Part shown: positions 5,447 through 33,348 of the stretch, in pieces | Layout of the letters: each line of letters starts with the position of its first letter | How positions within the stretch are numbered: the stretch's first letter is position 1 | DNA from: Microcaldota archaeon | GTDB taxonomy: Archaea; Micrarchaeota; Micrarchaeia; Micrarchaeales; CABMGC01 | Assembly: GCA_021797995.1 (NCBI GenBank) | Contig: JAJZYR010000008.1 | Coordinates: forward strand, 1 to 38,525 | DNA length: 38,525 nt | Direction: 5' to 3' | Notes under the pieces: generated by a model | Seen by the model: only the letters and a program-made list of their open reading frames with translations | The model's database searches: none | What the model was told of the DNA's origin: nothing | Made by a program: the position numbers and the translations under genes

Positions 5447-5818
5447 GTGGTTAAGATGAATGTGCCAAGAATCTTGAAGTTTCTGTATTATGCATTTATA
5501 GCCGGAACGCTGATGGCCTCCTTTGTCTACGCAGGTGCCGGTTCAAGCATCTCAGGGAGCTTGTGTGGGATAGTAGGCAGCGTAAGGACAGTAATAGGGG
5601 TGCTGTCACTGCTCCTATTCATAGCAGGCGGGGTACTTTATGCAGGGGCGCACATGCTGCCCGCTGCCGGCAACCTTAGGGGAAACCTGCAGGGCTGGTC
5701 CATGGGCATGATTGTCGGATCAGTTGTTGGCCTGATACTCGTAATCCTTGCGCCTACAATACTGACAATGATTGCAGGTCTGGGAGGCAACTCGGTCACA
5801 ATCGCTAGTGGTTGCTGA
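5447..5818 (+). CDS. Small two-TM protein with N-terminal signal, VirB2/TrbC pilin-like architecture
   Basis: Signal-like N-term followed by VIGVLSLLLFIAGGVLYAGAHMLPAAGNLRGNLQGWSMGMIVGSVVGLILVILAPTIL (TM - polar/basic loop - TM), as in VirB2/TrbC-type pilins; length 123 aa. Confidence 0.55.
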   Translation: MVKMNVPRILKFLYYAFIAGTLMASFVYAGAGSSISGSLCGIVGSVRTVIGVLSLLLFIAGGVLYAGAHMLPAAGNLRGNLQGWSMGMIVGSVVGLILVILAPTILTMIAGLGGNSVTIASGC

Positions 5819-5975: not shown

Positions 5976-7844
5976 TTGATTATGCAGCCATTTGTCAGTC
6001 GCATTAAGCTGAAGTATCCTCTCATTGAGTTCTACACCGCGCTGCTCCTGTTCATTGCATACACCGGAGTGTATCTCTCATTTAGCTTTCCGTACTATGC
6101 GCCTGCCGCGCTCTTCACGATTCTTTTCTTCTCCTATGTAATAATATACATTGTCTGGTCTGGCGGAAGCCTGAAGAGGATCGCGCTCCGCACACTCTTC
6201 GCGCTGATGCTCCTCCTCTTCCTTCTCTTCTTCCTGATGCCCGCCCCTGTATTCTTTGGACAGATGAGAGATCTGGTCTCACTTGGCAGCGGTGTTGGCA
6301 TATACCTCCTTTTCCTGCTGCCAACCTACCTGCTCTTTGCGTTCGGCTGCTACATGTACAGGATAAAGAAGGATCGCAGGGCCGGCTCCATCTTCTTCGC
6401 GATAGGCTTCTCGCTCCTGCTCGTCTTCTTCGGATACTTAGTCACTTACTACAGCGTAGGCGACGAGGTGCTGCTCTCCCTTCAGGCGGTAGTGCAGCTG
6501 CTGCACGGTGCAAACCCCTATTCCTCCTCGATCCTTGGCTTGCTGTACGCATACCGGAACACGGTAGGAGGAACCCTGACTACCGGCAATGTCTATGTAT
6601 CGACGATGGACTATCCGGCCCTTTACTTCCTCTCCTCCGCGCCTTTCTACTTTCTTTCCAGCCAGACAGTCTATGGCCTCGGACATACAGACATGAAGAT
6701 AGAGGTATCTGCGTTTCTTGCCCTTCTCCTCCTGACCTTGGTTTTCTTGAGGGACAGGAAGGACATACTGGGGTTCAGCCCTGCCATCGTGGTCTTCCTC
6801 GCCTTCGTTACCTCCACGATGGTCTCGGCCCCCACCATGCTGATGCTCGCCCTCGTAATAATTGCTTATGCGAGGCTGGACAGCAGATACGCCTTCATTC
6901 CCTTGGGGCTAGCGCTCTCGATACAGCAGGAGCTGTGGCTGCCTGTTGCCTTCCTGATGTTGTTCTCCCTGAACAACGGAAGGCTGAGGGATGCCGTGCG
7001 CAGCATCCTCGGCGCTGCTGCCATCTTCCTGCTCGTCAACGCATACTTCATAGCGCTGAACCCGGCAGCGTTCTTCGGCGATATCTTCCTTCCCCTTGGC
7101 CATATTATACCTTTCAGCGCCACCCCGTTTGCCTCTGTGCTCCTGTACAGCTACGGCGTCGGACTCTCGCTCTCCAGCGCGCTGATGCTTCTCTCCTCTG
7201 CGGCCCTTGCCCTCCTGCTCCTCTACTGGAACAGGAAGGAGCTGATACCGGTATTCAGCCTGGTGCCGCTCCTCTTTCTCTTCCATTCGCTTACAGGCTA
7301 TTACACCTTCTTCCTCTTCTTCCTGGTCTTCGTAATGTCGCTTGGATCCGGCAGGAGGAATGCCGGCCGCTTCACCGCCCTGCTTCGCAGTCGCAAGGCG
7401 CTCCTGTACTCCTTGCTTGCACTGATTGCTGTGATAGGCGTTGCACTGACGTACCAATCACACCTGGGATATGAAAGCAGCTTTGGCATACGCACTGCAA
7501 ACCAGAGCGTGCGCTTCGCTGGGAATAATACCGTATACAGCGCCGATGTACTCCGTACAGGGCGCGGAAACCTTACCCTTTATCTGTACTTGCAGGGCTA
7601 CAGCGCAAACGATACATACCTGCTGTACGGGCTAGGAAACCAGAGTCTCATAGGGACGGCGCCGTTGTGCGGCAGCCCCGAATGCCTGATCAACGTGAAC
7701 AGGATAACGATGCCAGAGAACACAGCCTTGTATCACCTCACTGCGGTGATTAACGGCAGCAACGAGTCATCGAAGGTTACATGCCTCGATGCGATGCTGT
7801 ACAGCCACGATTACATCTACATTAGCAGGCTCGTATGCGGCTAG
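5976..7844 (+). CDS. Large polytopic membrane protein, putative GT-C/GT87-like glycosyltransferase
   Basis: Many TM helices with YSVGDEVLLSLQAVVQLLHGANPYSSSIL, reminiscent of the acidic-motif plus 'G.NPY' segment of GT-C mannosyltransferase-like proteins, and a C-terminal extracytoplasmic domain. Confidence 0.55.
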   Translation: MIMQPFVSRIKLKYPLIEFYTALLLFIAYTGVYLSFSFPYYAPAALFTILFFSYVIIYIVWSGGSLKRIALRTLFALMLLLFLLFFLMPAPVFFGQMRDLVSLGSGVGIYLLFLLPTYLLFAFGCYMYRIKKDRRAGSIFFAIGFSLLLVFFGYLVTYYSVGDEVLLSLQAVVQLLHGANPYSSSILGLLYAYRNTVGGTLTTGNVYVSTMDYPALYFLSSAPFYFLSSQTVYGLGHTDMKIEVSAFLALLLLTLVFLRDRKDILGFSPAIVVFLAFVTSTMVSAPTMLMLALVIIAYARLDSRYAFIPLGLALSIQQELWLPVAFLMLFSLNNGRLRDAVRSILGAAAIFLLVNAYFIALNPAAFFGDIFLPLGHIIPFSATPFASVLLYSYGVGLSLSSALMLLSSAALALLLLYWNRKELIPVFSLVPLLFLFHSLTGYYTFFLFFLVFVMSLGSGRRNAGRFTALLRSRKALLYSLLALIAVIGVALTYQSHLGYESSFGIRTANQSVRFAGNNTVYSADVLRTGRGNLTLYLYLQGYSANDTYLLYGLGNQSLIGTAPLCGSPECLINVNRITMPENTALYHLTAVINGSNESSKVTCLDAMLYSHDYIYISRLVCG

Positions 7845-8014
7845 GGTGGACCGGGGGAAGGAAACTGAGGGGCACGGAGAACCGAACGCCGCTGGCTGCG
7901 GAGACCCTTGCCCCGGCACTGGCGCCAGGCCGCCTCAACATGTCCGGCATGCTGTCGTATCCCGATGTCTTTTTAATCTTTGCATGCGCTAGATATCCGA
8001 AGTATGGTGCGGAG

Positions 8015-8746
8015 ATGGGAAATGTCCTTGCAGACGCTTATGAGACCTACTCGGAGAACCTAAGGCTTGTCCTGGTGTTTTCGATACCGTTCATCATAGC
8101 CTTCGCGATCCCGCTGCTCGCCCCGCTGCCCACCTTCATAGCGGCTGGAGGCACCTTCCTCAGGACTGCAAGCATCTTCGTGAACCCAGACCTGGTCGGG
8201 CTTGCGGTAATCGTTGCGTCGATGATCTTCTCACTCCTCTTCCTCAGCCTTGCATTTGTCGGGATAAGCCTTATAGTCAGGGCGAGGAAGACGCACGTGG
8301 CCGTCGGGAAGAGGGCGCTCAAGGATATCGAGAAGTATGTGGGGAGGGTGTTTGCCGTCCTGCTGGCATACGCGCTCCTGCTCCTTGCGGCGAACATACT
8401 TGGCTATATGGCAGGGGTGCAGGGCCCTGCTACCGCCCTTGCCGGCTTTTTCGGCTTTGCCGTGATCTTCTACGTGCCTAGCGCGATCGTGGTCGACAAC
8501 AAGAGGATAGGGAGGGCTGTCAGGGACAGCGTGAGGCTCGTGCTCCATGCGCCGCAGTACTACCTGCTCTGGCTTTTTCTGCTTGCCGCAGTGATAACGC
8601 TTGCCGACGCCTTCTTTATCTTTGTTGCCGGGACTGCCTGGTCCGGCTTTATAGTGCTCATAGCGACGTCGGTGCTCATCCTGCCTTACTTTGTCATACT
8701 GCAGGCGGAGTCGTACATGAAGAGATTTGCCCTCCTTACACATTGA
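8015..8746 (+). CDS. Six-TM integral membrane protein (DUF7847/DUF975-like)
   Basis: MGNVLADAYETYSENLRLVLVFSIPFIIAFAIPLL...FYVPSAIVVDNKRIGRAVRDSVRLVLHAPQYYLLWLF; ATG at 8015 in frame with the ORF; TTTTTAAT TATA-like element about 40 bp upstream, so the track start at 7835 is probably too early. Confidence 0.55.
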   Translation: MGNVLADAYETYSENLRLVLVFSIPFIIAFAIPLLAPLPTFIAAGGTFLRTASIFVNPDLVGLAVIVASMIFSLLFLSLAFVGISLIVRARKTHVAVGKRALKDIEKYVGRVFAVLLAYALLLLAANILGYMAGVQGPATALAGFFGFAVIFYVPSAIVVDNKRIGRAVRDSVRLVLHAPQYYLLWLFLLAAVITLADAFFIFVAGTAWSGFIVLIATSVLILPYFVILQAESYMKRFALLTH

Positions 8747-8788: not shown

Positions 8789-10072
8789 ATGCGCTTGGGA
8801 CAGGGAATGCGGCTGCTTCTTCCTCTCGCCCTAGTGCTTGGGGTTCTTGGAGCCGCGCCAGCAGCTTCCGCCGCATCTGTCTCCAATCCCATCGGCTATA
8901 CGCCGAGCAGCTGCACGGGCACAGGAGGAACGACGGCGGTCAACGGGCCGAATCCCGCAGCGACCATCGGACTCACGCTCATAGCACTCAGCCTCGCCTT
9001 CGACGTCGTCGCACTCGGATACCTGTTCAGCAAGATCATGCCGGCGCTTAATCCGGTGCAGACAGGCTTCGGCTTCGCCCCGGCGGGGATATCCGGCTGG
9101 GTGAGGAACGAGCTATACGAGCTGACGAAGTCTGCGCTGCTCGTCGTGAGCATCTATGCTGTCATAGTGATGGTGAGTGGAATCAGCCTCGTACTCTCCC
9201 CTGTACCCCTGAATGGGGGATCCAGCGGCTCGTTTGCCGGCATCGGAAATCTGATAACCGAATCAGAATCGTATCTCTGCACTGCAGACGGCAATCTGGT
9301 TTACGGGTGGAAATTCATAGGCGAGGAGAGCGTCGCAATCGGACTCCTGCAGGGCTCGCAGATAGGGCTCTGGGTCCCGCTTCCGTTCTTCCTGCCGCCA
9401 TATATCGAGCCTGATGAGCCTCCAAGCTTTGCGATAACCTCGGGATTCGCAATCAAGCCGTACCAGAACTTCATGCTCGAGTCCGGAAACCTTGTCATCC
9501 AGCATTTCGAATCCGCAGTCTTCGACCTCGTCCAGTTCGTGCTCTTCCCAGTAACCGCCATGATAAGCGGGTTGATACCTCTCCTGCCCTTCCTCGTCTC
9601 GCTGGGCCTCACGGTGCTCATACCTGTCGGCCTCGTCTTCCGCGCATTCCCATTCATACGCGGAATAGGGGGAACGCTCATCGCCATAGGCGTTGCAGTC
9701 TCACTGATCTTCCCGTCGATGCTGGTGCTTCTCGACGCGCCTGTCAGCAACTGGGCAAACCAGCTCATGCCGACGGCATACGAACCGGCGTCGAACTGCA
9801 ACGGCGGCTTCTTCTGTACCGCCTTTAAGGCCATAACGAACGTTGCGTTTAGCACTCACAATTTTGCAAAGATACCCGAGTACGCCTGGGAGGCGTTCTT
9901 CGGCATATATACGTTCTATAACGGATTTATGGGCTCTGCATTCTACTCTATAGTACAGCTCCTGCTCTTTGCAGTCAACCTTATAATAATGTTCCAGCTC
10001 ACTGACGGACTGGCAAGGGCGCTTGGAGGCTCGATACGCCTGAGCCTCGGAAGCAAGCTCAAACTCGGATGA
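8789..10072 (+). CDS. Polytopic membrane protein, paralogue 1 of a VirB6/CedA-like array
   Basis: Signal peptide; multiple TMs; core motif IPVGLVFRAFPFIRGIGGTLIAIGVAVSLIFPSMLVLL shared with the next five genes. Confidence 0.7.
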   Translation: MRLGQGMRLLLPLALVLGVLGAAPAASAASVSNPIGYTPSSCTGTGGTTAVNGPNPAATIGLTLIALSLAFDVVALGYLFSKIMPALNPVQTGFGFAPAGISGWVRNELYELTKSALLVVSIYAVIVMVSGISLVLSPVPLNGGSSGSFAGIGNLITESESYLCTADGNLVYGWKFIGEESVAIGLLQGSQIGLWVPLPFFLPPYIEPDEPPSFAITSGFAIKPYQNFMLESGNLVIQHFESAVFDLVQFVLFPVTAMISGLIPLLPFLVSLGLTVLIPVGLVFRAFPFIRGIGGTLIAIGVAVSLIFPSMLVLLDAPVSNWANQLMPTAYEPASNCNGGFFCTAFKAITNVAFSTHNFAKIPEYAWEAFFGIYTFYNGFMGSAFYSIVQLLLFAVNLIIMFQLTDGLARALGGSIRLSLGSKLKLG

Positions 10073-11310
10073 TCATGATGGACTTAACAGCTCTGGTGGC
10101 AGGCAGCAGCATTCCCAATACCTGCGGTTTCGGGGCGCTGGGGAGCAACGGACTTAACCAGGGTGCGTGGATCAACATAAACTTCATAGTGGTGCTCCTT
10201 ACCATAATGGTTGCGGTGTTCGTGTACACGATTGCCATACTCCTGCCAGCTGCCACCAGGGAGAAGCTCAGGGGAGCGGCAAAGGTCGAGGCCGGCCAGG
10301 GGATAATAGGGCTTGTGATAGTGATGCTCCTTGTGCTCTTCTCGGCAGGCACCTGCCAGCTCGGCCAGGGGCTCACTCTCGGGCTTTCTGCAGGCACATA
10401 CCAGAATCCGCAGCAGTTCTCGCAGTATTACCTCGAGAACCTGCTCTTCGTAAAGAATCCGGAGCTCTTCGGGCAGCTGTACTCCGCAGGCGCCCAGTTC
10501 CTCATCTTCGGGAATGTGCTTGATCAGATAGTGGAGAGCGTGGAACTCTCAGTAGGAGGGTATGCCGGAATACAGCTTGACTCGAACATCGTTCAGGTAT
10601 ATTACGGATACGCCGGGATTGCCACAGGCACTTACACGGCGATGCTGGTCGCCTCGTACGGCGTCCTCTTCGTCTTCTTTCTCCTGCTTCCGATAATCTT
10701 CGCGTTTGCACTTACGACCCTGGCTCCCCTCGCTCTTGTGCTCAGGTCGCTGCCGTTCGGCGGGCCCAGGCTCAGGGAGACCGCTGACGCCTTCCTGGGA
10801 ATAGCGATAGCCTTCTATTTCATCCTTCCCCTCACGCTGACCCTTGACAACTACATAATCAACTGGACATACTGCAGCACCGGGGTCGGGAACATAGCGC
10901 CGCCCATCGGCACTGTTGCCACCGGATGCAACCCGTATGCCAGCTATCTCGCCCCAGGGGGCAACATCCTTGCCAAGCTCGGCGACCTTAATACAATCCT
11001 GTCAAGCACACCTCCTTCTGGCAGCGCCACGGGCCTGGGCAGCCCAGGTATTCAGGGCAGGTTCTTCGGAGGGGTTGTCAATGGCGGCGGAGGGATTATG
11101 TCCATAATGGGAAACATTCTGAAAAACCTCTTTGACATCCCGCAGGTCATCTCAGGCTATGGAAATGAGATAGCGGCGTTCATGTTTGAGAGCATAGTAT
11201 TAATTGCGCTTGACATTGCAATAACGATAGGGTTTGCGCAGGGCATTGCGAAGGGGCTCGACGCCTTCCCGAGGGTTATAGGCGTATCGCCTTTCTGGGG
11301 TAATGTATGA
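10069..11310 (+). CDS. Polytopic membrane protein, paralogue 2 of the array (divergent core)
   Basis: Core LAPLALVLRSLPFGGPRLRETADAFLGIAIAFYFILPLTLTL; 4-bp ATGA overlap with the previous CDS. Confidence 0.7.
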   Translation: MIMMDLTALVAGSSIPNTCGFGALGSNGLNQGAWININFIVVLLTIMVAVFVYTIAILLPAATREKLRGAAKVEAGQGIIGLVIVMLLVLFSAGTCQLGQGLTLGLSAGTYQNPQQFSQYYLENLLFVKNPELFGQLYSAGAQFLIFGNVLDQIVESVELSVGGYAGIQLDSNIVQVYYGYAGIATGTYTAMLVASYGVLFVFFLLLPIIFAFALTTLAPLALVLRSLPFGGPRLRETADAFLGIAIAFYFILPLTLTLDNYIINWTYCSTGVGNIAPPIGTVATGCNPYASYLAPGGNILAKLGDLNTILSSTPPSGSATGLGSPGIQGRFFGGVVNGGGGIMSIMGNILKNLFDIPQVISGYGNEIAAFMFESIVLIALDIAITIGFAQGIAKGLDAFPRVIGVSPFWGNV

Positions 11311-13043
11311 TGCGAAGGTTTGTTTATCTCGCCGCGCTCCTCCTGCTTAGCTCCGCGACTCTGCCGGTGCTTGGGGTTCTTGGAGCCGCGCCAGCATCAC
11401 CGCTGAAGGCAGGGCAACTTGAGACCCCTGTTTCAGGCTTTACCAGCTGGCTTCCGGTCATCATCCTTGCAATCATGCTGAGCATGGCGCTCGTAAGCGC
11501 ATACTACATGATAGGCGTCATTCTGGACAATGTCAAGGTAAAGGGCCAGGCGAAGGGCGAGTTCTACCAGGCGATAGGCACCATGGTGCTGGTGATAATA
11601 ATACTCTTCATCTTCGGGATCTTCGGAACGTCACTTACCTCGACAAGCAGCCTTGCAGCCTCTCCGGCCAGCATTAACACCATCTGCAATCAGCTGAAGA
11701 ACTCTCCGTTCCAGTTTACAAGCAGCACATATGCAAGCGGAGGAGTCGACAGCCCGACCAACCTGGTCTGCAAGATAATAGCCCAAGACGCCGGATACAA
11801 GAACGGCATCCCGACAGAGACGGCAAACCTTGACTATGGGCTTGCAGCCACGTACGTTATAGCCGCAAACGAGACGAACCAGACGCTGAACAACCTGAAC
11901 GCGCTGTACTTCTTTGAGGGGGAGTCGGGATACCTCAGGGCCTTCACATCCGTAACGGTTTTCTGCGTTCCGGCAATGTGCGCGATTCCCGTATATCCTG
12001 ACAGGATTATGTGGTTCTCTTATACGTACATGCCATTCGAAGGATACCAGCTGCAGAGGGCCTTCCTGCCGCCGGTCGAGACGATGGCGACGCTCACCTT
12101 CTACCTCTTCCTGCTCCAGATGACAATAATACTCCTGCTGCTCTATGCATGGCCTGCCGTGCTTGCCGCGGGGATAGTGCTCAGGACCTTCTCGATTACG
12201 AGGAGGGCTGGGGGCTTCATGATAGCGCTTGTGATAGTCGTGCTTATAATATATCCGATAGTGGTACTGTTCGAGTACACCTCGCTCGGGAATGGGAACG
12301 CGCTCTGCCAGTACGCAAGCCCTGGCAGCAACTCCAACGGCAACCCAAACAATATAGTGGGGCCGGGGTCGCAGACCAGCCCTACATTCGCCGGAGCCAA
12401 CTCCGCATCAACCAACAAGAAAAACGGGAATTGCATAGAGGCCATAGGCACCAATTCAATACCGTCTATGGTCATACCGTACACGCGGCTGACGAATCCA
12501 GTGAAGCCTCCGAAAGGCAGCAGTGAGCAGGAGTACTACAACATAAACACACCTAATGCCCCGCCGGCAGACCATTATAACCTCAACTTCTACGTGATGC
12601 CCAACCTCGCCTGGGTCCTCAATTACTACGGATGCTACCCAAATGGCGGAAACAGCGTTCTTGGGGGCGGCCTTCTCAGTAAGGAGATTGGATTTGCATC
12701 ATGGTACCTGATACCAGGCTATGGCCTCTATCAGGGGCTCACGTCCAGCGGCGGTGGAGGCGGACCCCTGGCGCTTCTGACGGGATTCTTTAACCTCATA
12801 AGCAACAACATTGGCGGAGCTTACACGATAACTTCGCTGCACCTGCCTCCGGGATACACCTGCTTCACACCCAAGGGGATAATCACTGCCGACATAGCGG
12901 TAGTAAACGTATACGGCGTCGAGGGCGTCACCGGCTTCGTCATTCCACTCCTTAACGTACTGATATTAATCTCAGGCATACTGGGGCTCTCCGGACTGCT
13001 CGGAGGGGACACCAACCTGGTCGGAATGGCCAGATTCATATAG
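11307..13043 (+). CDS. Polytopic membrane protein, paralogue 3 of the array
   Basis: Signal peptide; core LAAGIVLRTFSITRRAGGFMIALVIVVLIIYPIVVLF; 4-bp overlap with the previous CDS. Confidence 0.7.
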   Translation: MMRRFVYLAALLLLSSATLPVLGVLGAAPASPLKAGQLETPVSGFTSWLPVIILAIMLSMALVSAYYMIGVILDNVKVKGQAKGEFYQAIGTMVLVIIILFIFGIFGTSLTSTSSLAASPASINTICNQLKNSPFQFTSSTYASGGVDSPTNLVCKIIAQDAGYKNGIPTETANLDYGLAATYVIAANETNQTLNNLNALYFFEGESGYLRAFTSVTVFCVPAMCAIPVYPDRIMWFSYTYMPFEGYQLQRAFLPPVETMATLTFYLFLLQMTIILLLLYAWPAVLAAGIVLRTFSITRRAGGFMIALVIVVLIIYPIVVLFEYTSLGNGNALCQYASPGSNSNGNPNNIVGPGSQTSPTFAGANSASTNKKNGNCIEAIGTNSIPSMVIPYTRLTNPVKPPKGSSEQEYYNINTPNAPPADHYNLNFYVMPNLAWVLNYYGCYPNGGNSVLGGGLLSKEIGFASWYLIPGYGLYQGLTSSGGGGGPLALLTGFFNLISNNIGGAYTITSLHLPPGYTCFTPKGIITADIAVVNVYGVEGVTGFVIPLLNVLILISGILGLSGLLGGDTNLVGMARFI

Positions 13044-13050
13044 TGGGACT

Positions 13051-14397
13051 ATGAAGAAATTTGCAGTACTCGCGCTTCTCCTCCTGCTAGCCGTGCCTGC
13101 GCAGGTCGTGATCGGGGCCGGAGCGGCGGCTGGCGCAGGGACAGGCTCCGGAGGCGGCTCGACAAGCCTGCTCACCAGCTTATTCAGCTGCAATGCCCTC
13201 TTCGAGTACGGAGAAACTACTATCGCAACAGGCAACCCTACTATCGCAACAGGCAACCCTACTATCGCAACAGGCAACCCTACTATCGCAACAGGCAACC
13301 CGCTTATCAGCCCTTCGCTTGTGCAGCTTGCCAGCCCCACTGCGGTTGGTAACGCAGGCTTTGCAGGCATGCTTACCGACTCGATGCTCGTGGTGCTGCT
13401 GATGCTCTCCGTGCTCGCACTGCTCTACGGGATAGGATACGCCTTCAGCCTGACAAGGCTGATGGCGTTCGTCAAGTCGGAGTATGCGGAGTCGCTTGCG
13501 AACGTTGTGATAATAGTGATAGTGATGGTGGGCGGTTTCGGCCTCTTCAACAGCGGCATGGTCTTTCTGTCTGGCGTTGCCGCCGGAGCTGTCGGAACCA
13601 GCGGTCTTACCCTCCAGGGCGGGCAGGCGCTGTCAACGCAGCAGGTCTACCTTGACCTCTGCCACGGCTACAACAGCGGCATAATATCAGCAAATCTGGA
13701 AAATTACGGTGGAGTCGTAGTAACCCTGTTCCTTTACAATGTGATAATAGGATTTGGAGTAGAGGCGATGCCGAACGGCTTCGGCTTTGTCATACATCCC
13801 TTCGACGGGATCCAGACCCTCAGGGTGGCCATCTGGACCGAGGAGGGCATGGCATTCGCAATCATAGAGATGGGGGGCATGCTCATACTCATGCTCTTCA
13901 CGATCTACTTCCTCTTCCCGATCTTCTTCTACGTCGGGCTTGCGCTGAGGACCTTGCCATGGACCCGCGCAGCCGGAGGCTCGCTCATTGCCGTATTCAT
14001 CGCCTTCTACATTGTGTTCCCGGCGCTCCTGCTCCCGTTCTCGCAGATAGTGCCCCAAAACCCCGGGCTGTGCGGAGTCGCCTTGGGCAGCAATCAGGCG
14101 CCGACCTCGACACTCTGTACTACGGAAGGCTTCTGGGCCAAACTCGGCAGCGGGTTAAGCAATGCATTATCCGGATTAATTGGTACAACAACCGCTTACT
14201 TTACAGGCGGAAGCAGCTTCGGCACGGTAATGGAGGGGAATGTCGTTGAATTCACCAACGAGATCAGCTACTCGGTAATGCAGCTGATTGGAGTCATTAT
14301 ATCCTTTATTATATCTTATGACTTGATGGAATTCCTGGGCGACGTCCTCGGGGCGCCATCGCTGCAGGCGAGCAGGATACTTAGCAAGGTGGTATGA
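13051..14397 (+). CDS. Polytopic membrane protein, paralogue 4 of the array, with TIATGNP tandem repeat
   Basis: Signal peptide; core FYVGLALRTLPWTRAAGGSLIAVFIAFYIVFPALLLPF; four in-frame 7-aa repeats near the mature N-terminus. Confidence 0.7.
   Translation: MKKFAVLALLLLLAVPAQVVIGAGAAAGAGTGSGGGSTSLLTSLFSCNALFEYGETTIATGNPTIATGNPTIATGNPTIATGNPLISPSLVQLASPTAVGNAGFAGMLTDSMLVVLLMLSVLALLYGIGYAFSLTRLMAFVKSEYAESLANVVIIVIVMVGGFGLFNSGMVFLSGVAAGAVGTSGLTLQGGQALSTQQVYLDLCHGYNSGIISANLENYGGVVVTLFLYNVIIGFGVEAMPNGFGFVIHPFDGIQTLRVAIWTEEGMAFAIIEMGGMLILMLFTIYFLFPIFFYVGLALRTLPWTRAAGGSLIAVFIAFYIVFPALLLPFSQIVPQNPGLCGVALGSNQAPTSTLCTTEGFWAKLGSGLSNALSGLIGTTTAYFTGGSSFGTVMEGNVVEFTNEISYSVMQLIGVIISFIISYDLMEFLGDVLGAPSLQASRILSKVV
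13219..13302 (+). repeat. Four tandem 21-bp repeats ACTATCGCAACAGGCAACCCT encoding TIATGNP
   Basis: Copies at 13219-13239, 13240-13260, 13261-13281 and 13282-13302; identical except the final base of copy 4 (CCG). Confidence 0.97.
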
Positions 14398-14398
14398 G

Positions 14399-15724
14399 AT
14401 GATTGGGCTTATAGGGCTGGCAGCATATGCAGCTGCGCCAGTCTGCGGAGCCGGCTGCAGCCTGAGCGGCATGATAACCAGCCCGTACGTGATAGGCGCT
14501 GCGATAGCGATGGCCGCAGTCCTGATTGTAATGGCGGTCCTTGCAATAATTTACATGATAAGCCCCTTCCTCGGGAACACGAACATAAAGGCATGGATAA
14601 GGATGAAGATCTACGACGAGATGGCGTCAATCGTCTTCATCTTTATCTTCATAGCGTTCGGCGCGCTTATCGCAACGTATCCTATGGCGAGCAGTTTTGC
14701 CAGCCTGGGCCTTGTGCCAGGCGCACCTACCTCGACAAATCCAGCAGGCTCCTCGTGCTATCAGGCAGCTACTACGCCTACGGTAATCCCTCCGACAGCC
14801 GCAGGGCCTGGGCAGACGATAAGCAATGACAATCTGTACTTCCTTTCGGTGTGCGACATAAGCTACTACAATGGTCAGGTCAATACCTTCGCGGCACTCA
14901 CCTTCTACATCGCGGCGATAGCTTCGCTCTCCCCTACCGTGAGCATTAAATATCCACCTGAAAGCAAAACTGTGTCAACTGGAGTCACGAATACCGGTGA
15001 AGATAGCGGCGAGTCTACAACGCATCCTGGATCGATATCGCCGATCTTTACAGCGGGAGTCACGAATACCGGCATAGGGTTTTCTGCAGGCTTCCCCCTA
15101 CTGCCTATCGAGCCTACCTTCCATTATACGCTGCCGCTGATCAACCTGTTTTACGGCTTCTGGATACTGATAGAGGTGCTTCAGCTGCTGATCGCCTCAT
15201 CGGGGATAATATACGCGGTGCTGATGGCAGTGGGGCTTGTCGCGCGCTCGTTCGGCATAACAAAGTCTTTCGGAGGCGCAATGATAGCCTTTGCGGTAGG
15301 GATAGGAGTGATCCTTCCGATCATGGTAAGCTTATCATACGGGTTCATAGACTATGCAATGGCAAATGCCGGGGGCCAGTTCATCTGCAGCTTCGGATTC
15401 AATAATCTTAACCTTAATGGTGCTTCTTGTCCACCCTCCACGACTCTGCCGTATAAGTTTATCGAGACAGCCGGAGACTTCTTTGGGGGCATCTTCACAG
15501 GAAATATCTGCTGCGGGACCAATACGGCGGTGTACTACCTCTCAGGCGGGCCGCTTCTGCTGCCTGTCTTCCAGTCGTTCCTGCTCTTCGGCGGCCTGGT
15601 GACCATAGGCATGTCCTTCATGCCGCTCATTATCATCACAGTAGTAGACGCTTTTATAGTTGACTTCTCAAAGAGCATAGGGGAGAGGATGGACTTCCTC
15701 TCGCTGCTTACAAGGCTTGCGTGA
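14399..15724 (+). CDS. Polytopic membrane protein, paralogue 5 of the array
   Basis: Core YAVLMAVGLVARSFGITKSFGGAMIAFAVGIGVILPIMVSL; adjoins the previous stop codon. Confidence 0.7.
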   Translation: MIGLIGLAAYAAAPVCGAGCSLSGMITSPYVIGAAIAMAAVLIVMAVLAIIYMISPFLGNTNIKAWIRMKIYDEMASIVFIFIFIAFGALIATYPMASSFASLGLVPGAPTSTNPAGSSCYQAATTPTVIPPTAAGPGQTISNDNLYFLSVCDISYYNGQVNTFAALTFYIAAIASLSPTVSIKYPPESKTVSTGVTNTGEDSGESTTHPGSISPIFTAGVTNTGIGFSAGFPLLPIEPTFHYTLPLINLFYGFWILIEVLQLLIASSGIIYAVLMAVGLVARSFGITKSFGGAMIAFAVGIGVILPIMVSLSYGFIDYAMANAGGQFICSFGFNNLNLNGASCPPSTTLPYKFIETAGDFFGGIFTGNICCGTNTAVYYLSGGPLLLPVFQSFLLFGGLVTIGMSFMPLIIITVVDAFIVDFSKSIGERMDFLSLLTRLA

Positions 15725-15728
15725 TTGA

Positions 15729-16943
15729 ATGGTGCACGAATTTCGCATAAAGGCTCTGGCATGCCTGATGCTCCCGCTGCTCTTGGCAGTTATCATGCCT
15801 GGAATCGCTGGCGGCAGCACGCTCCACCTCCTTGCGGCGGCAGGCGCAGGCAGCACCGGCGCGCAGCCTCCTGCCCAGGCCAGCGTGCTGTCGAGCTACT
15901 GTGCGAACCCGAACGTATTCGGCGCCAATGCAATAGTCAGTATAACCTCGCCATGGTACTGCACGGGCATAAACAACGCCACAATTCAGATATGGAAGAA
16001 CTGGATGCCGATAGCATATGCGGTGATGCTGCTGTCGTTCTCCATCGCCGCAGTCCTCATAATGTTAGGGATTGCGCTGAGGAGCGACAGGATGAGGGTC
16101 TTCGGGATAGGCGAGCTTTACGAGGCCTTGGCGACCGCCATCATCGTAATCCTCTTCTCGTTCGTGGCTGCAGAGCTCTTCGGAATCCTTCCCGGCTTCT
16201 TTGCAGGCTCGTTCAATCCGTATACGGTCTCGCTGAACTATCTCAGCCAGAGCATACACGCCACAGGAACGACGCTGACTTACCTCTGGCAGATAGCAAC
16301 TCTCGATTACTTCTATGCAGGGCAGCAGGTAACTGAATGCATAGGGGAAGTAGACTTTAAGTGCGCAGAGAGGATAACCGTAGTATCACCTATCTTCAAG
16401 TATGGTGTAATCTACGGTTTTTTCTGGCCGGCGTGGTCCCTGGAGGACCTCATGATCGGAGGTTTCATGGCAATGAACCTTGAGTTCTACATGATAATCT
16501 TCCTGATGTACGCGGCGATACCGGTCTTCCTCGTTCCAGGGGTGATCTTCAGGGCGTTCATGCCCACGCGGCACCTTGGGGGCATGATGATGGCTACGGC
16601 GATAGGCTTCTACTTCTTCATGCCGATGCTCTTCAGCATCGCCTATTATTTCACGAGCACTGGCGTCACAAGCCAGCTTGATGCGATAACGAATGCGCTC
16701 GGCAGGTACGGCGGATGCACCGCCGGCGCAGCTTCGTGCTCCAGCGCTATCAAGAACTCGATCTCGCCGTCCTCGCCTCTTATCGAGACGCTGGCGAGCG
16801 CGCCGAGGGTGCTGTCGTCATTCTGGCTCTCGACAATCTTCTATCCTGCACTGATAAGCGCGATGACCTACGCTTTCATAGTGCAGGTAGGGGAGATACT
16901 CGGAGGCATGGCCAGGTCTTCGTCAAGGCTCCGCGGCCTCTGA
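15729..16943 (+). CDS. Polytopic membrane protein, paralogue 6 of the array
   Basis: Signal peptide; core FLVPGVIFRAFMPTRHLGGMMMATAIGFYFFMPMLFSIAYYF. Confidence 0.7.
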   Translation: MVHEFRIKALACLMLPLLLAVIMPGIAGGSTLHLLAAAGAGSTGAQPPAQASVLSSYCANPNVFGANAIVSITSPWYCTGINNATIQIWKNWMPIAYAVMLLSFSIAAVLIMLGIALRSDRMRVFGIGELYEALATAIIVILFSFVAAELFGILPGFFAGSFNPYTVSLNYLSQSIHATGTTLTYLWQIATLDYFYAGQQVTECIGEVDFKCAERITVVSPIFKYGVIYGFFWPAWSLEDLMIGGFMAMNLEFYMIIFLMYAAIPVFLVPGVIFRAFMPTRHLGGMMMATAIGFYFFMPMLFSIAYYFTSTGVTSQLDAITNALGRYGGCTAGAASCSSAIKNSISPSSPLIETLASAPRVLSSFWLSTIFYPALISAMTYAFIVQVGEILGGMARSSSRLRGL

Positions 16944-17006: not shown

Positions 17007-17861
17007 TTGGCTTTCGAGTTCCGTTTGATCCTCTTCGTGCTGCTGCTGGCAGCGTCGCTGGCGCTGATCCTCGTTGCAGCTTCGATTACAGGCCTTTACA
17101 TAGTCAAGCTTCTCATCGGCATCGTTGCGGTGGTGCTGGATGTCCTTGCAATGGCGACAAGGTACTTCACGTACCTCTTTGAGCCCATGTACAAGATGAA
17201 ACGCAGGGTTGCGGTCATAGACAGCGACGACCCGTATACGATGTCCCCTTCGGGGAATGCCATAATCAGGAGGGAAAAGGACCTTGTATACGCAACGGCA
17301 TTCGTAAAGATACCTGTCTATGCATCGGCGACCGAGATGGAGGATGCAGAGAAGGCGGATTTCGCAATGGCATTCGGGAGAATGCTCTCGATAATAAAGG
17401 AGCCGTTCAGGCTTAGCACCCAGCTCTACGTCCTGAACAAGGATGAGTACGTAGAGAAGATAAGGAGGAGGCTTGATGAGGCTCAGGATAGGTACAACCA
17501 GCTTGCCTCAAAAGAGTCTGCAGAAGGGGCATCGGCAAGCAGGAACGTCTCTCCGGAGGCCGAAAGGATAAGGGGTGAGACAACCATGTGGCGCAACATG
17601 CTCGACAGCGTCAGCGGAGCTAGGTCCCACTCGCTCCTTTCTTATGCGGCCATAACCTCGGCAGGCGGAACCGAGGAGGAGGCCGTGAACCTTGCGGTGC
17701 TTAAGGGTGGCGAGCTCGCCACAGGCATAAGCACGGCTCTCGGGATATCAGCCTCGCTGGCTGACAGGGGCGAGATACTCTTCCTGATAGAGCCGGATTA
17801 CATGATACCGATCGCAAACCTCAGCGAACAGATAACAAGGAAGGAGGAAGGGAACGGATAA
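17007..17861 (+). CDS. Two-TM protein with cytoplasmic domain; VirB3 plus VirB4-N-domain-like (paralogue A)
   Basis: Two N-terminal hydrophobic segments, then a soluble domain aligning by eye with 17872..18693 (IIRREKDLVYATAFVKIPVY...; ...FLIEPDYMIPIANL). TTG start; TATA-like GATTATAAAA at about 16970. Confidence 0.6.
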   Translation: MAFEFRLILFVLLLAASLALILVAASITGLYIVKLLIGIVAVVLDVLAMATRYFTYLFEPMYKMKRRVAVIDSDDPYTMSPSGNAIIRREKDLVYATAFVKIPVYASATEMEDAEKADFAMAFGRMLSIIKEPFRLSTQLYVLNKDEYVEKIRRRLDEAQDRYNQLASKESAEGASASRNVSPEAERIRGETTMWRNMLDSVSGARSHSLLSYAAITSAGGTEEEAVNLAVLKGGELATGISTALGISASLADRGEILFLIEPDYMIPIANLSEQITRKEEGNG

Positions 17862-17871
17862 AGTGGTCTAA

Positions 17872-18693
17872 ATGGATACTGAATCTCTGGTGTATATCGC
17901 AATAACCGGGCTTGTGGCCCTCATGCTGATCATGACGAGCGCCGGCTATGGCCCCTTTGCGCTGGTAATTGCCGTGCTTGCGGCGATAGCAATACTGGTC
18001 AACATAATGATAAACTATGTCGACTTCATCGTCTTCCCATTCGTTACAAGACTGCTCGGAATAAGCTTCGTGGTTGGAAACAGGTATACGATACCGAAGA
18101 CGCAGGATTCTGTAATAAAGTACGTGAACGGAATTTATTACGCTACCGGATACCTGACGGGAAACCTCTACAACTATGTCTTCTCATCGCAGCAGGAGCA
18201 GGACGACCGGACCGCCTTTGCAGGGGCGATGGACAAATGGGAGAGGATCGTGATGAACGTTGACTTCCCATTCAAGTTCAACGTGATTGCAATGTCTGAA
18301 AACGTCCAGAAGTACCGTGAGGAGCTTGACGGCCAGAGGGGATATATCGAGTTCCAGATCTCTCGGGAGATGAACAGCACAAACCCGAACCAGATGAGCA
18401 TAGGAGAGCTGGAGAGGCGGCTTGGTATAATACAGGCGAAGATGGACAGAGTCGCCACAGGGGAGAGGCCGATGAACGTGATGATGTACATAGAATCGAC
18501 GGCAGTCGGGGTGAGCGAGAAGGAGGCTTCCGACAGGCTGGCAAACCAGCTGAGCCAGCTCCAGACGGTATTCAATGCTTTCGACCTCAGTATCATGAGG
18601 GTTACCGGGAGGGAGGTATACTTCCTCAACCGGCTTAATTACATGATACCGAACTGGGCCGAGCTGAACAAGATGTTCCAGTCGCAGAAATAG
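17872..18693 (+). CDS. Two-TM protein with cytoplasmic domain; VirB3 plus VirB4-N-domain-like (paralogue B)
   Basis: Two N-terminal TMs, then DSVIKYVNGIYYATGYLTGNLYNYV...VQKYREELDGQRGYIE...FLNRLNYMIPNWAEL; immediately precedes the ATPase. Confidence 0.6.
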   Translation: MDTESLVYIAITGLVALMLIMTSAGYGPFALVIAVLAAIAILVNIMINYVDFIVFPFVTRLLGISFVVGNRYTIPKTQDSVIKYVNGIYYATGYLTGNLYNYVFSSQQEQDDRTAFAGAMDKWERIVMNVDFPFKFNVIAMSENVQKYREELDGQRGYIEFQISREMNSTNPNQMSIGELERRLGIIQAKMDRVATGERPMNVMMYIESTAVGVSEKEASDRLANQLSQLQTVFNAFDLSIMRVTGREVYFLNRLNYMIPNWAELNKMFQSQK

Positions 18694-18699
18694 TATTTT

Positions 18700-20229
18700 A
18701 TGCGTGCGCTTGCATGTGGTATCATGTCGCTAGTAAGGATCCAGAGCATAATGGGAAACGAGCTCTCGAAGAGGGTCTTCCTCAGCAGGCCCCCTGAGCC
18801 CCCATACGAATACCTTCTGAACGACCCTACTGATTCCATCTTCATAGGCACGACAAAGCTTTTCGGCGTTCCGTTTACATGGACATACGCCACCCTTACC
18901 AACCCACATCTGGCTGTAGTCGGGATAACCGGCGCTGGGAAGTCCTTCTTCGTAAAGACCTTCCTGATCCGCGCAAGCTATGTATGGAATACGAACGCGA
19001 TAATCATCGACTGGGCCGGGGAGTACAAGGCGTGGGTAAGGCAGAGTGGCGGAACGGTGATCTCGCTCTCCAAAGGGGACTACATAAACATCATGGACCT
19101 CTCCGGCATGAAGCCGATAGACAGGGTAAAGCAGATCATGAACTCGCTTGACATACTTACCGATGTAGGCGAGTATGCGGAGCAGCGCCGCCTTACGTCA
19201 GAGGCGATTGAGCAGGCTTATGTAAATGCCGGCTTCTCGCTCTCCCAGGTTCCCGAACCCGGAAGCGAGGCTCCGACGCTGAAGGAGGTGACGGCCCTGC
19301 TCGACGAGAAGCTTCAGGACGGCTCATACGAGTATCCGGCGGAACTTGAGAATGCCATCTACAGGCTCAGGCAGTTCACAAGGGAGGGGGAGGACTACTT
19401 TGCGAAGAAGTCCACAATAGACATAGGCAAGCTCTCGTCATCGGGGCTTGTGGCCTTGGACCTCTCGACGCTTCCTGACGAGAAGTTCAGGGCTCTTGCC
19501 GCGATGTTCATACTCCAGACGCTCAAGGAGCGCATGCGCACGGAAGGATGGAGCGGCACAAAAGGCCTGAAGGCGATAGTCGTACTCGACGAGGCCTGGA
19601 AGGTGGCAAGCGACGACAGGAGCGACGCGATAACCATCGTCAGGGAAGGGAGGAAGTACCAGTTCGGCCTGATCGTGGCATCGCAGAACCCTACCGACGT
19701 GAACGAGGCCATCTTCTCCAACGTCGGGACGACAGTGATGCTGAGGATAAGATTCGAGAAGTTCATGAACTACCTCCAGGGCTCGCTCAACTTTTCGAAT
19801 TACATAAGGAGCGAAATAGGGAAGTTCGGTGTGGGGCAGGCTGCCTTTGACATGTCATTCCACTCCGCCGTCCAGTTTCCCGACGTCTTCCTCCTTGAGA
19901 GGGTTGTCGGGGAGGAGCCGCTTGACGTGTACACGATAAACGCCTCCGATATCCTCACTCCTGGGGAGCTTGCGGATCAGACAATACAGAAGGAATACTA
20001 CCTAGAGAGGATAGACCTGAACTCCAAGTTCATACAGGCTGGAATAGGCTCCGAGATGATAGCGCTTCTCTTTGCCGACCTGGAGAAAGCAGGGAAGACA
20101 ACCAGCATTCAGGGGCTGGCCAGCATAATGCTGAAGAGGGGCATTACAAAGGATACGATAGTGGAGTTCCTGCGGGGCATGAAGATCGTTGATAATGTGA
20201 TAACGCGGATACTGTCAGCTGCCGGCTGA
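18700..20229 (+). CDS. VirB4/HerA-superfamily (DUF87-like) ATPase
   Basis: Walker A GITGAGKSFFVKTFL, NTNAIIIDWAGEYKAWV, Walker B LKAIVVLDEAWKVASDD, VREGRKYQFGLIVASQNPTDVNEAIFSNVGTTVMLRI. Confidence 0.85.
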   Translation: MRALACGIMSLVRIQSIMGNELSKRVFLSRPPEPPYEYLLNDPTDSIFIGTTKLFGVPFTWTYATLTNPHLAVVGITGAGKSFFVKTFLIRASYVWNTNAIIIDWAGEYKAWVRQSGGTVISLSKGDYINIMDLSGMKPIDRVKQIMNSLDILTDVGEYAEQRRLTSEAIEQAYVNAGFSLSQVPEPGSEAPTLKEVTALLDEKLQDGSYEYPAELENAIYRLRQFTREGEDYFAKKSTIDIGKLSSSGLVALDLSTLPDEKFRALAAMFILQTLKERMRTEGWSGTKGLKAIVVLDEAWKVASDDRSDAITIVREGRKYQFGLIVASQNPTDVNEAIFSNVGTTVMLRIRFEKFMNYLQGSLNFSNYIRSEIGKFGVGQAAFDMSFHSAVQFPDVFLLERVVGEEPLDVYTINASDILTPGELADQTIQKEYYLERIDLNSKFIQAGIGSEMIALLFADLEKAGKTTSIQGLASIMLKRGITKDTIVEFLRGMKIVDNVITRILSAAG

Positions 20230-20239
20230 GGAGGCTTGA

Positions 20240-20536
20240 ATGGCAAAGACATATGTAATAAGCAGGATAAAACTCGAGAAGATACTCTCGACGTTCAGAA
20301 TCAGCACCAAGAACAGCGATGAGATGCTCAATCAGATAAACAAGACGCACAGGCACATAAACGCCGTCGCCTTCGTATCAATGATGCACAGGTATGGAGT
20401 CGGACAGGCTGACATGGCAAACATGCTGAGAAGGATAGGCTTTGACGATGTTACGATAACCGAGGTATTCAACATGCTCGACGAGCAGAGGATAAACGAG
20501 ACCTATGGAAAGATAGTTGAACTTGATGTTGACTAG
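20240..20536 (+). CDS. Small helical protein of unknown function, downstream of the ATPase
   Basis: 98 aa; 10 bp after the ATPase stop; segment DMANMLRRIGFDDVTITEVFNMLDEQRI resembles the ATPase C-terminus. Confidence 0.65.
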   Translation: MAKTYVISRIKLEKILSTFRISTKNSDEMLNQINKTHRHINAVAFVSMMHRYGVGQADMANMLRRIGFDDVTITEVFNMLDEQRINETYGKIVELDVD

Positions 20537-20544
20537 GTAATTCT

Positions 20545-20919
20545 ATGAGAAGGAAGGTTGTTTGCATAATATGCGGGAAGGAGAAGGACGGGATACCGGT
20601 AAAGATAGACAGTATCATAAAGGCGATACGCTGGATAAAGACGAACATAACCAGGAACGAGAAGAACAATATCCTTGTCGTATGCAGGGACGACTACCAG
20701 GCGTATGCCAAGGCCAGAAAGAAATATACCTCAAGGCAGGCGCTCTACCTGACCCTGGGCGTGATCTTCTTCATCATCGGTAACGTGATGGCGCTGAGCC
20801 TTGCCGGCTTTGCCATAACGGTCCTGGTGCTCGCCATGTTCTACGGCCTTTCGCTCCTGAGCTATGCGCCGGCGCTTGAGCTGCGCAGCTCCGGCAGGAA
20901 AGGCTCCAAGAAGGTATAA
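20545..20919 (+). CDS. Small protein with N-terminal CxxC motif and two TM helices
   Basis: MRRKVVCIICGKEKDG...VVCRDDY, then QALYLTLGVIFFIIGNVMALSLAGFAITVLVLAMFYGLSLL. Confidence 0.65.
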   Translation: MRRKVVCIICGKEKDGIPVKIDSIIKAIRWIKTNITRNEKNNILVVCRDDYQAYAKARKKYTSRQALYLTLGVIFFIIGNVMALSLAGFAITVLVLAMFYGLSLLSYAPALELRSSGRKGSKKV

Positions 20920-20957
20920 ATAATAAAGCACGCATCAATATCTACGGTACACAGGGC

Positions 20958-21698
20958 ATGGGTCTGGTTGAGATGGCTGGAGAGGTTGCAAGCGTTCCGA
21001 AAGTCGAGGAGCTGACCTTCAGCGGCACCCTTAACGCGGACTTTGAGGCTATTAGGAAGAAGGTTTCGCAGGTGCCTTTCTACACAGCCAAGATGGACGG
21101 CGGGACCCTTGTGCTTGCAAGGGTTGAAAGCAGGGGCATAAACAAGAAGCCGTATCTGTTTTACATGATAAAGATATGCGGCAACGCGATAAGCGTCGTC
21201 TATTCTATCCCGCATGACATGAGCGACAGGATGAGGCGCGCATATGTCATCAAGGACCTCATATCGGTGCTCTCCCTCATTGTGGGAATGTTCAAGGTTG
21301 ATGAAGAGGCCTTCTACCAGTACGTGGATTCGGTGGTAAATGACCTCCTCGGCGGCCTGTCAGACAACTACAGCGTATTATTCAACAAGTACGACGCCCT
21401 CCTCTCTGAGTACAGGGAACTGAAGAGGCGTGATCTGGAGCTTAGCGCATCGAACAGGAACCTTGCCGTGCAGACGACGCAGCTCAGCGAGGACAACAAG
21501 AAGCTCAAGGAGCAGCTGGACGCCCTGCAGAAGTACTCTGACTCCTCGCTTATGGCCATGATAGAGGACTGGATAGAGGTCCACAGCGATACGATAGACA
21601 TCAATGAATTTGCAAGGACATATGGCATAGTCCCGCCAAGGATAGAGCAGCTCCTCGACAGGATGGTTTCGCAAGGATATCTGGAGCTTAAAGAGTAG
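20958..21698 (+). CDS. Coiled-coil protein with C-terminal winged-helix-like segment
   Basis: Heptad-rich LLSEYRELKRRDLELSASNRNLAVQTTQLSEDNKKLKEQLDALQKYS; C-term INEFARTYGIVPPRIEQLLDRMVSQGYLELKE is wHTH-like; TATA-like GTATAAATAA upstream. Confidence 0.65.
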   Translation: MGLVEMAGEVASVPKVEELTFSGTLNADFEAIRKKVSQVPFYTAKMDGGTLVLARVESRGINKKPYLFYMIKICGNAISVVYSIPHDMSDRMRRAYVIKDLISVLSLIVGMFKVDEEAFYQYVDSVVNDLLGGLSDNYSVLFNKYDALLSEYRELKRRDLELSASNRNLAVQTTQLSEDNKKLKEQLDALQKYSDSSLMAMIEDWIEVHSDTIDINEFARTYGIVPPRIEQLLDRMVSQGYLELKE

Positions 21699-21703
21699 AT
21701 TGC

Positions 21704-21853
21704 ATGAAGTATTCGCTCGCAGTAAGCAGGAAGTTCAGTTACGTCAGGACATACCGCGTGGTAAGGAAGGTAAACGACCAATCGAACGCCATATCGCGAT
21801 TTGTGCAGGGCCTCATCGACAAGTACGTATTGAAAAGCGACAAAGGGGCGTAG
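21704..21853 (+). CDS. Short basic ORF (49 aa), not in the supplied track
   Basis: ATG 21704 to TAG 21851-21853: MKYSLAVSRKFSYVRTYRVVRKVNDQSNAISRFVQGLIDKYVLKSDKGA; fits between two same-strand genes. Confidence 0.45.
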   Translation: MKYSLAVSRKFSYVRTYRVVRKVNDQSNAISRFVQGLIDKYVLKSDKGA

Positions 21854-21868
21854 CGAAGGAGAGGCTTT

Positions 21869-30070: not shown

Positions 30071-30092
30071 CCCGACAATCCTCTTGCTGACC

Positions 30093-30479
30093 TTACTCCT
30101 TCTTCTCCTTCTTTGCGAAGAGCTGCTCGGCGGGAATCTTGCCGTATTCCGTGATTACTGCGTTTATCTGGGCAGTATCACTGCTTACCGTATTTCCGCG
30201 TATCATTCTGCGCTTCCTGAGCCCGTGCCTTGCCCCTCTTATCCCCGCCCCGCCGCTCAGGAGGGGCCATGCCTTCCGCGTGCCGTCGATCTCCCTTCTC
30301 GATGGGGCTCCGGTGTTGTCACTCAGTCCAGTTATCTGAAGCTTGAATCCTTCAAGCTTTGCCACAGACCCTTCCACCTGCTCCCCTATCCTCTTCCCGA
30401 TAACCATCGGCTCGAATTCCTTTGGCACCTCTGCCTGCGAGGTCTTCCCGCTCTTCTTGTCAGAATACACTATCTTCAC
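30093..30479 (-). CDS. rps6e: Ribosomal protein eS6
   Basis: MKIVYSDKKSGKTSQAEVP...IGEQVEGSVAKLEGFKLQITGLSDNTGAPSRREIDGTRKAWPLLSGGAGIRG...RKRRMIRGNTVS. Confidence 0.9.
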   Translation of the reverse strand: MKIVYSDKKSGKTSQAEVPKEFEPMVIGKRIGEQVEGSVAKLEGFKLQITGLSDNTGAPSRREIDGTRKAWPLLSGGAGIRGARHGLRKRRMIRGNTVSSDTAQINAVITEYGKIPAEQLFAKKEKKE

Positions 30480-30509
30480 ATAATCAACTCTTGATTATTA
30501 CTGCACGGA

Positions 30510-32666: not shown

Positions 32667-32930
32667 ATGTCAAAACACCGCATTTAACCATTATTACGGT
32701 TTACTTTAGTGTATGAATTAATATAAATACTCCGTTCAGTTTAGGCTGCCTGGTGGGGATGGGTTCCCTGCACGTCGGAATGCATAAAAGGGGCGCGATA
32801 CTCTGCTGCGCGCCTGCCATGGCCCGGCACCTTCATCTGCTGCAAGGCATACGGTTTTAAATATTCTCTCTGCATCATATATGAACCTAATCGCCAATTG
32901 CTCGATTTTACCTTCTGGCCGGTGCCGTAA

Positions 32931-33083
32931 ATGGGAAAATTTCCAATAGCTGATGATAATCTGGCAAACGTCATGATCTGCAGGAGATGCAAGTCAAGGA
33001 ACAGGATGGCTGCGGAGAAGTGCAGGAAGTGCGGCTATGGATACCTCAGGCCGAAGAGGAAGGAGAAGAGGGTCAAGAAGTGA
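32931..33083 (+). CDS. rpl40e: Ribosomal protein eL40 (50 aa), not in the supplied track
   Basis: ATG 32931 to TGA 33081-33083: MGKFPIADDNLANVMICRRCKSRNRMAAEKCRKCGYGYLRPKRKEKRVKK with CxxC...CxxC zinc ribbon. Confidence 0.85.
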   Translation: MGKFPIADDNLANVMICRRCKSRNRMAAEKCRKCGYGYLRPKRKEKRVKK

Positions 33084-33105
33084 CGCTGATCTGACTTATG
33101 AAAGA

Positions 33106-33339: not shown

Positions 33340-33348
33340 GTCCCTTCA

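Follow-up and report, generated by a model that had tools for sequence, protein, structure and literature searches.

Six tandem genes encoding paralogous polytopic membrane proteins were detected in a type IV secretion system (T4SS)-like locus of a Micrarchaeota genome, and every complete array of this family that we examined across the phylum holds exactly six. The genes lie at 8789-16943 of a 38,525-nt stretch of DNA (the window; positions 1 to 38,525 of contig JAJZYR010000008.1, assembly GCA_021797995.1) from a Microcaldota archaeon, whose genome assembly of 945 kb is 94.6% complete. The locus is chromosomal and occurs phylum-wide in Micrarchaeota. We consider it probable that it specifies a T4SS resembling the archaeal Ced and Ted systems. 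In this machine, what was once a lone VirB6/CedA-like subunit would have become six, all obligate and all part of one hetero-oligomeric channel, a composition that we infer from array size and duplication.

Six paralogous polytopic proteins

An initial annotation, made from the nucleotide letters alone, had described six open reading frames (ORFs) sharing one core motif, and all six are present:

8789..10072, + strand, polytopic subunit, position 1 (ORF check, HHalign, tree)
10069..11310, + strand, polytopic subunit, position 2, the most divergent, with its first two transmembrane helices pilin-like (HHalign, tree)
11307..13043, + strand, polytopic subunit, position 3, with a long insert past the core motif (HHalign, tree)
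13051..14397, + strand, polytopic subunit, position 4, carrying GLALRTLPWTRAAGG (HHalign, tree)
14399..15724, + strand, polytopic subunit, position 5 (HHalign, tree)
15729..16943, + strand, polytopic subunit, position 6, carrying GVIFRAFMPTRHLGG (HHalign, tree; AlphaFold2 model, predicted local distance difference test score (pLDDT) 82)

The 4-bp overlaps described at 10069-10072 and 11307-11310 are real, the remaining gaps are 7, 1 and 4 bp, and each of the six proteins contains one copy of the core motif along with 5-8 hydrophobic segments (Kyte-Doolittle). Among 122 homologues the motif reads G-x3-R-x5-R-x2-G-x4-A-x9-P, with the first arginine conserved in 97%, the second in 95%, the glycine after it in 95% and the proline in 98%. 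Identity to position 6 among the other copies is 14-20%, and position 2, already singled out in the initial annotation as the most divergent, has both the lowest value (14%) and the weakest profile scores. Position 4 also contains an in-frame tandem repeat, IATGNPT in four copies, in its N-terminal part (residues ~57-85) that is not conserved in relatives.

Several pairs of the six were already matched by BLASTP (best E 1e-7), and HHalign of orthologue alignments (36-37 sequences each) matched all 15 of 15 pairs at 97.0-99.5% probability (E 1e-10 to 1e-22, 217-369 columns). The same comparison gave below 5% against all six for the unrelated polytopic neighbours m0, e5976 and d3000 (at most 1.2% for m0), so the all-against-all alignment of the six cores reflects more than shared hydrophobicity. 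On this profile evidence the six ORFs are true paralogues. A shared profile retrieves the family; in the source genome its matches are these six genes (one of them split into two pieces) plus a single copy in a separate mini-operon and nothing else, so the motif does not occur in unrelated transporters there. Structural modelling, which had been suggested for each of the six, covers position 6 alone.

Arrays of six across the phylum

We searched the polytopic family profile across 196 Micrarchaeota genomes and matched it in 179 (f1-f23 below are anonymous codes for families within the phylum, L and G numbers denote loci and genomes). Exactly six genes were found in 62/62 extracted complete arrays (11 families: f1-f9, f11 and f21), counted after gene calling. 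Another 11 arrays (f6, f12, f14, f16, f18 and f23), counted by eye from match coordinates, have six each, with a few genes split by stops or into two matches. Among the remaining loci, eight of eight carry exactly one relative, and four are contig ends or cases in which the array was relocated. Six genes each make up the arrays in L177, L192, L194 and the complete genome of ARM-1, where the array lies elsewhere on the chromosome (L208). A candidate seventh gene in L191 was a weak match of 19.9 bits outside the array and was discarded. At each junction, adjacent genes are less than 30 bp apart or overlap in 57-59 of the 62 arrays.

The positions of the six genes are likewise conserved. On a tree of 122 sequences, the labels for positions 1 to 6 plus the single type require 7 changes (6 is the minimum, and shuffled labels average 82), with positions 1, 3 and 4 needing two changes each. 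A branch with 98% support sets position 6 apart, and one with 91% support does so for position 2 (quick search, Shimodaira-Hasegawa-like approximate likelihood ratio test (SH-aLRT) support, unrooted; branches are long and deep relations between positions poorly separated). The genes group by position and not by genome, which indicates that the six types predate the radiation of the families and that array duplication took place in blocks of six; f3-f8 and f21 each have two such arrays, unlinked to one another. Judged by this grouping, the six positions are orthologous across the phylum.

A T4SS-like genomic setting

The array is flanked by genes that suggest a T4SS-like apparatus:

5447..5818, + strand, putative VirB2/TrbC-like pilin, 123 amino acids (aa), with hydrophobic helices (Pfam TrbC/VIRB2, E 1.5e-5)
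7835..8746, + strand, m0, six-transmembrane protein that precedes the array in 36 loci and is not paralogous to the six
17007..17861, + strand, b, N-terminal transmembrane hairpin plus cytosolic domain, paralogue of the 17872 protein (blastp E 4e-9; HHalign 96.9%)
17872..18693, + strand, c, putative detached VirB4 N-terminal-domain-type protein with transmembrane segments, phylum-wide (AlphaFold2 pLDDT 84; Foldseek)
18700..20229, + strand, VirB4/CedB/CedD/HerA-type ATPase that lacks an N-terminal domain of its own (Walker A GITGAGKS, Walker B VVLDE)
20240..20536, + strand, conserved 98-aa protein (first-pass matches in 61/61 loci; 48 after best-family assignment)
20545..20919, + strand, conserved 124-aa protein with a CxxC pair and one transmembrane segment (61/61 loci)
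20958..21698, + strand, conserved 246-aa protein with a coiled-coil-like segment and a winged-helix-like C-terminus (58/61 loci)
21869..24244, + strand, conserved 791-aa protein with an N-terminal transmembrane segment, a middle of ~520 residues, a second transmembrane segment and a C-terminal tail (57/61 loci)

The ATPase matches Pfam DUF87 (1.1e-14), AAA_10 (9e-14) and the TraG P-loop domain, as well as the VirB4-like structure 4ag5 (E 1.3e-8). Its best NCBIfam matches are CedD (2.3e-19), CD1110 VirB4 (9.6e-19) and CedB (6.9e-18), all under the curated cut-offs (69.5 bits of 600 for CedD and 64.6 of 700 for CedB). The pilin score of 25.6 bits falls just below the curated TrbC/VIRB2 cut-off of 27.9; this gene is present in 38/61 loci and adjoins the array throughout the order. 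For c, the top four Foldseek matches of the model are VirB4/TrwK chains of R388 (probability 0.99-1.00, E 0.02), with a template modelling score (TM-score) to the query of 0.35-0.40; since E is above 0.001, the match is supportive rather than conclusive. We read c as a probable detached VirB4 N-terminal domain on the strength of this model, and b likewise by paralogy. The T4SS-like setting is supported by the ATPase, the putative pilin and the VirB4 N-terminal-domain fold of one neighbour. VirB5 and VirB7-VirB11 were not recognised in the operon, and a VirD4-type coupling protein (PF02534) is absent from the source genome at its 94.6% completeness and was found in 5/14 control genomes.

Most of the 40 loci from the same order (f1 and f2) retain the gene arrangement pilin-m0-six-b-c-ATPase-s-s-s-l, as does f11, with six polytopic genes. 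Most other families keep a core of c-ATPase-s-s-l, with the array located away from it. Orthologues of m0 are mostly ~245-255 aa long, so the true m0 start is probably downstream. The four proteins at 20240-24244 (98, 124, 246 and 791 aa), kept beside the ATPase phylum-wide, have no confident Pfam match, the 791-aa protein having none at all, and may be unrecognised T4SS parts. Near the T4SS-like locus the window also encodes, among others, CDC48, aIF2-gamma, Topo VI-B and DUF2666, which help to place the genome in Micrarchaeota.

We found that the polytopic family and the ATPase tend to occur together. Counting core ATPase matches with E below 1e-90 and any match to the polytopic family, tallied by hand, both were present in 172 of the 196 genomes and neither in 16, with the ATPase alone in 1 and the polytopic family alone in 7 (Fisher P 3e-17, a value inflated by shared ancestry). 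The seven polytopic-only genomes are drafts from one order, that of the source genome. Families f10, f13, f15, f22 and most of f17 have neither the core ATPase nor the polytopic family and offer a natural contrast when asking which lifestyle trait accompanies the machine. Genome G189 carries two core ATPase copies with almost equal scores (contigs C16 and C23), either a real duplication or a binning artefact.

In f3, f5, f6 and f7, a gene for a very large protein (1153-1443 aa, some of them cut by the locus end) comes after one array of the two:

L192, 11673-16001, very large protein after the array
L194, 1224-5519, very large protein after the array
L198, 16232-19900, very large protein after the array
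L204, 12670-16131, very large protein after the array

These proteins have a lipobox-like cysteine near the N-terminus and could be a surface or tip component; no Pfam match was found for the two tested.

One-subunit loci

The eight loci with exactly one family member usually have it adjoining pilin and/or VirB4-type genes. In the source genome, contig C12 at ~29311-33392 (L216 2311-6392; also L189) carries a compact second T4SS-like operon encoding in a row a pilin, one VirB6-like protein, a VirB4 N-terminal-domain-like protein and a VirB4/TraG-type ATPase, along with a protein resembling the 20958 product. A similar locus is present in ARM-1 (L182), and others with differing parts are found in f6 (L180, which contains a relative of the 20958 product) and f17 (L174 and L175, whose two genomes have the single form only). 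HHalign joins the single type to each of the six positions with a probability of at least 99.8%, which speaks for a lone VirB6-like unit being the simpler form. The six probably arose from such a one-subunit module via tandem duplication; the direction from one to six is inferred because the tree is unrooted.

Interpretation of the array

We propose a chromosomal, type IV secretion-like machine as the product of this Micrarchaeota locus, with a plan close to the archaeal Ced/Ted DNA-transfer systems. The six VirB6/CedA-like proteins would form one hetero-oligomeric membrane channel, each in a fixed place, between a pilus on the outside and the ATPase on the inside, and a ring of six on a hexameric ATPase would be the simplest geometry. 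Candidate cargoes are DNA, protein or metabolites, perhaps exchanged with a host cell. With six genes in all the complete arrays that we examined, it is probable that six different parts make up the channel, and exact conservation of this number together with block duplication favours a hetero-oligomer of fixed make-up. The initial annotation had suggested such a channel: the T4SS-like setting, the constant six and the block duplication speak for it, but sequence homology to VirB6 was not detected. A more ambitious claim, which we advance tentatively, is that Micrarchaeota possess the first T4SS-like apparatus whose channel is asymmetric, with exactly six distinct VirB6-like subunits that cannot replace one another. 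Their defined order would have been fixed before the families of the phylum diverged, many families would have two complete versions, and the machine may be the molecular basis of envelope-spanning contacts between the symbionts and their host archaea.

Several observations weigh against a hetero-oligomeric VirB6-like channel. Comparison of the family with 13 proteobacterial (plasmid) VirB6 proteins gave HHalign probabilities of at most 1.5%, the same as reversed sequences, and the fold match to VirB6/TrwI (7o3v_G) is weak (probability 0.77, TM-scores 0.32/0.43, E 0.68). In the Sulfolobus plasmids pNOB8 and pKEF9, compared with two sequences per family, no component matched except the ATPase (95.8%). 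Genome G005 has two arrays of six (L087, L191 and L192) with a single ATPase match, so that two channels may share one motor. The 62 arrays are not 62 independent events, as they come from related genomes of one phylum. Known assemblies of this class are homopentamers (PMC9259494, PMC12857230); six is thus not derived from known geometry, and a six-membered ring is not to be assumed.

Other searches for the identity of the family gave no match to TrbL for 48 members at E up to 1, no credible Pfam or NCBIfam match for the six proteins, no solved structure by sequence for the polytopic or VirB4 N-terminal-domain profiles, and no match to the position-6 protein in a plasmid collection, where the ATPase found distant TraC/HerA-type proteins under 28% identity among the matches listed. 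A profile of the pilin matched the N-terminus of position 2 with 91% probability, that of positions 4 and 5 with 33-37%, and, at a comparable location, that of the other three (1, 3 and 6) with 2.5-7% (controls below 1%). By these scores the pilin-like character of the N-terminus appears clear in position 2 alone, of moderate strength in 4 and 5, and weak in 1, 3 and 6. We accordingly apply the label 'VirB6/CedA-like' on the basis of context, the weak fold match and the pilin-like N-terminus of position 2, not of VirB6 sequence homology.

The six may instead be alternative subunits that share the ATPase, each assembling into its own homo-oligomer (perhaps a pentamer like those of R388 and Dot/Icm) and serving a different substrate, host or stage of assembly. 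The homopentameric VirB6 and DotA structures (PMC9259494, PMC12857230), the long variable inserts that differ among positions, and the two arrays with one ATPase match in G005 would all suit such an arrangement. Alternative subunits should vary in number and be lost singly, yet all 62 arrays have six, with order kept and duplication in blocks, and the tight, often overlapping gene spacing suggests coupled synthesis; we therefore regard this explanation as unlikely. We judge it slightly less likely still that the family is not VirB6-like and forms a separate membrane complex, such as a scaffold or an envelope exporter, encoded in one operon with a T4SS-like ATPase. Such a complex would fit the lack of VirB6 sequence homology, the weak fold match and the location of arrays away from the ATPase in most other families, but single-copy relatives adjoin pilin and/or VirB4-type genes (L174, L175, L180, L182 and L189), the N-terminus of position 2 is pilin-like, and presence or absence of the family tracks the ATPase.

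Tandem genes on one strand are a setting in which paralogues arise easily, and the array could in principle be a young, neutral amplification of one gene with no fixed role per copy. This is very improbable, since the positions date back to the radiation of families within the phylum, the other copies are only 14-20% identical to the sixth, with none of the within-genome similarity expected of recent events, and the count is never other than six. Within the hetero-oligomeric explanation that we favour, the six subunits might not form a six-membered ring at all, but a stack, a pseudo-symmetric shell with unequal copy numbers, or a 12-mer with two arrays. We regard this variant as possible but doubtful: symmetry mismatches are normal in T4SSs (PMC9259494), and many families have two unlinked arrays, with one core ATPase locus in G005, but a ring is more economical, and the present results do not separate the two geometries.

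These arrays bear on the exchange of material between DPANN symbionts and host cells. When Microcaldus variisymbioticus ARM-1 was imaged together with its Metallosphaera host by cryo-tomography, nanotubes derived from the host were seen to dock on an unidentified barrel in the envelope of the symbiont (PMC11329633). The array of six in ARM-1 (L208) and its one-subunit operon (L182) yield named candidates for envelope-machinery genes in a co-culture under cultivation; that they encode the nanotube-docking barrel is speculation. The exact count also makes it testable whether a T4SS channel can consist of different subunits in fixed positions. Hetero-oligomeric rings with fixed subunit positions are familiar from MCM and the proteasome.

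Comparison with known systems

The nearest working model is provided by Ced of Sulfolobales (CedA, CedA1, CedB, CedD and CedE) and Ted of Thermoproteales (TedA, TedB and TedC), which are chromosomal and combine a pilin, a polytopic channel protein and a VirB4-type ATPase, as the present locus probably does. The likeness to CedA/TedA is suggested by gene plan and published features, such as the resemblance of the CedA N-terminus to the CedA1 pilin (PMC9905601). CedA/TedA proteins have 6-7 transmembrane helices, to be compared with the 5-8 hydrophobic segments of the six. Ced and Ted have one or two channel paralogues, in contrast to six here; CedA and CedE are two paralogous channel proteins proposed to form a hetero-oligomer (PMC11868833). 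The Micrarchaeota ATPase differs in falling below the CedB and CedD curated cut-offs. Separate proteins (two in this order) carry the putative VirB4 N-terminal domain, and the precedent for a split domain is CedB and CedD, which carry different parts of it (PMC11868833).

R388 (MPF_T; VirB2, VirB3, VirB4 and VirB6) resembles this locus in the VirB4 N-terminal-domain fold, a VirB4-type ATPase and a pilin that is probably VirB2-like here, but it has one VirB6, as a homopentamer (PMC9259494), and no VirB6 sequence homology is detectable here. Solved VirB6 and DotA (Dot/Icm) assemblies are homopentamers alike (PMC9259494, PMC12857230), and the T4SS places a pentameric stalk on a hexameric inner-membrane complex (PMC9259494). 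Patescibacteria T4SSs and the giant VirB4-linked proteins of Nanohaloarchaeota resemble the present case in that small host-dependent cells have a conserved VirB4-type system, with a role in host contact proposed for the nanohaloarchaeal proteins; the accessible portions of these sources describe no array of six VirB6-like genes (PMC12102498, PMC10266531).

The nearest precedent for tandem expansion, likened here by gene arrangement, is the rvh/virB T4SS of Rickettsiales, also a tandem operon of divergent channel paralogues, with four virB6 copies in Anaplasmataceae and five in Rickettsiaceae next to virB3-virB4 (PMC7648143). The initial annotation had held that known systems usually have one or a few channel subunits, a statement to be qualified in view of these four or five tandem genes (PMC7648143). 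The rickettsial systems are bacterial, span two membranes, include some very long C-terminal extensions and vary in count from three to five (PMC10732058), whereas the Micrarchaeota arrays have six throughout and were duplicated whole. We found no paper joining 'Micrarchaeota' and 'VirB6' in a literature search whose scope excluded most subscription papers and all bioRxiv preprints. In our assessment, tandem VirB6 expansion is already known from Rickettsiales, and what is new in Micrarchaeota is a set of six putative channel paralogues in fixed order.

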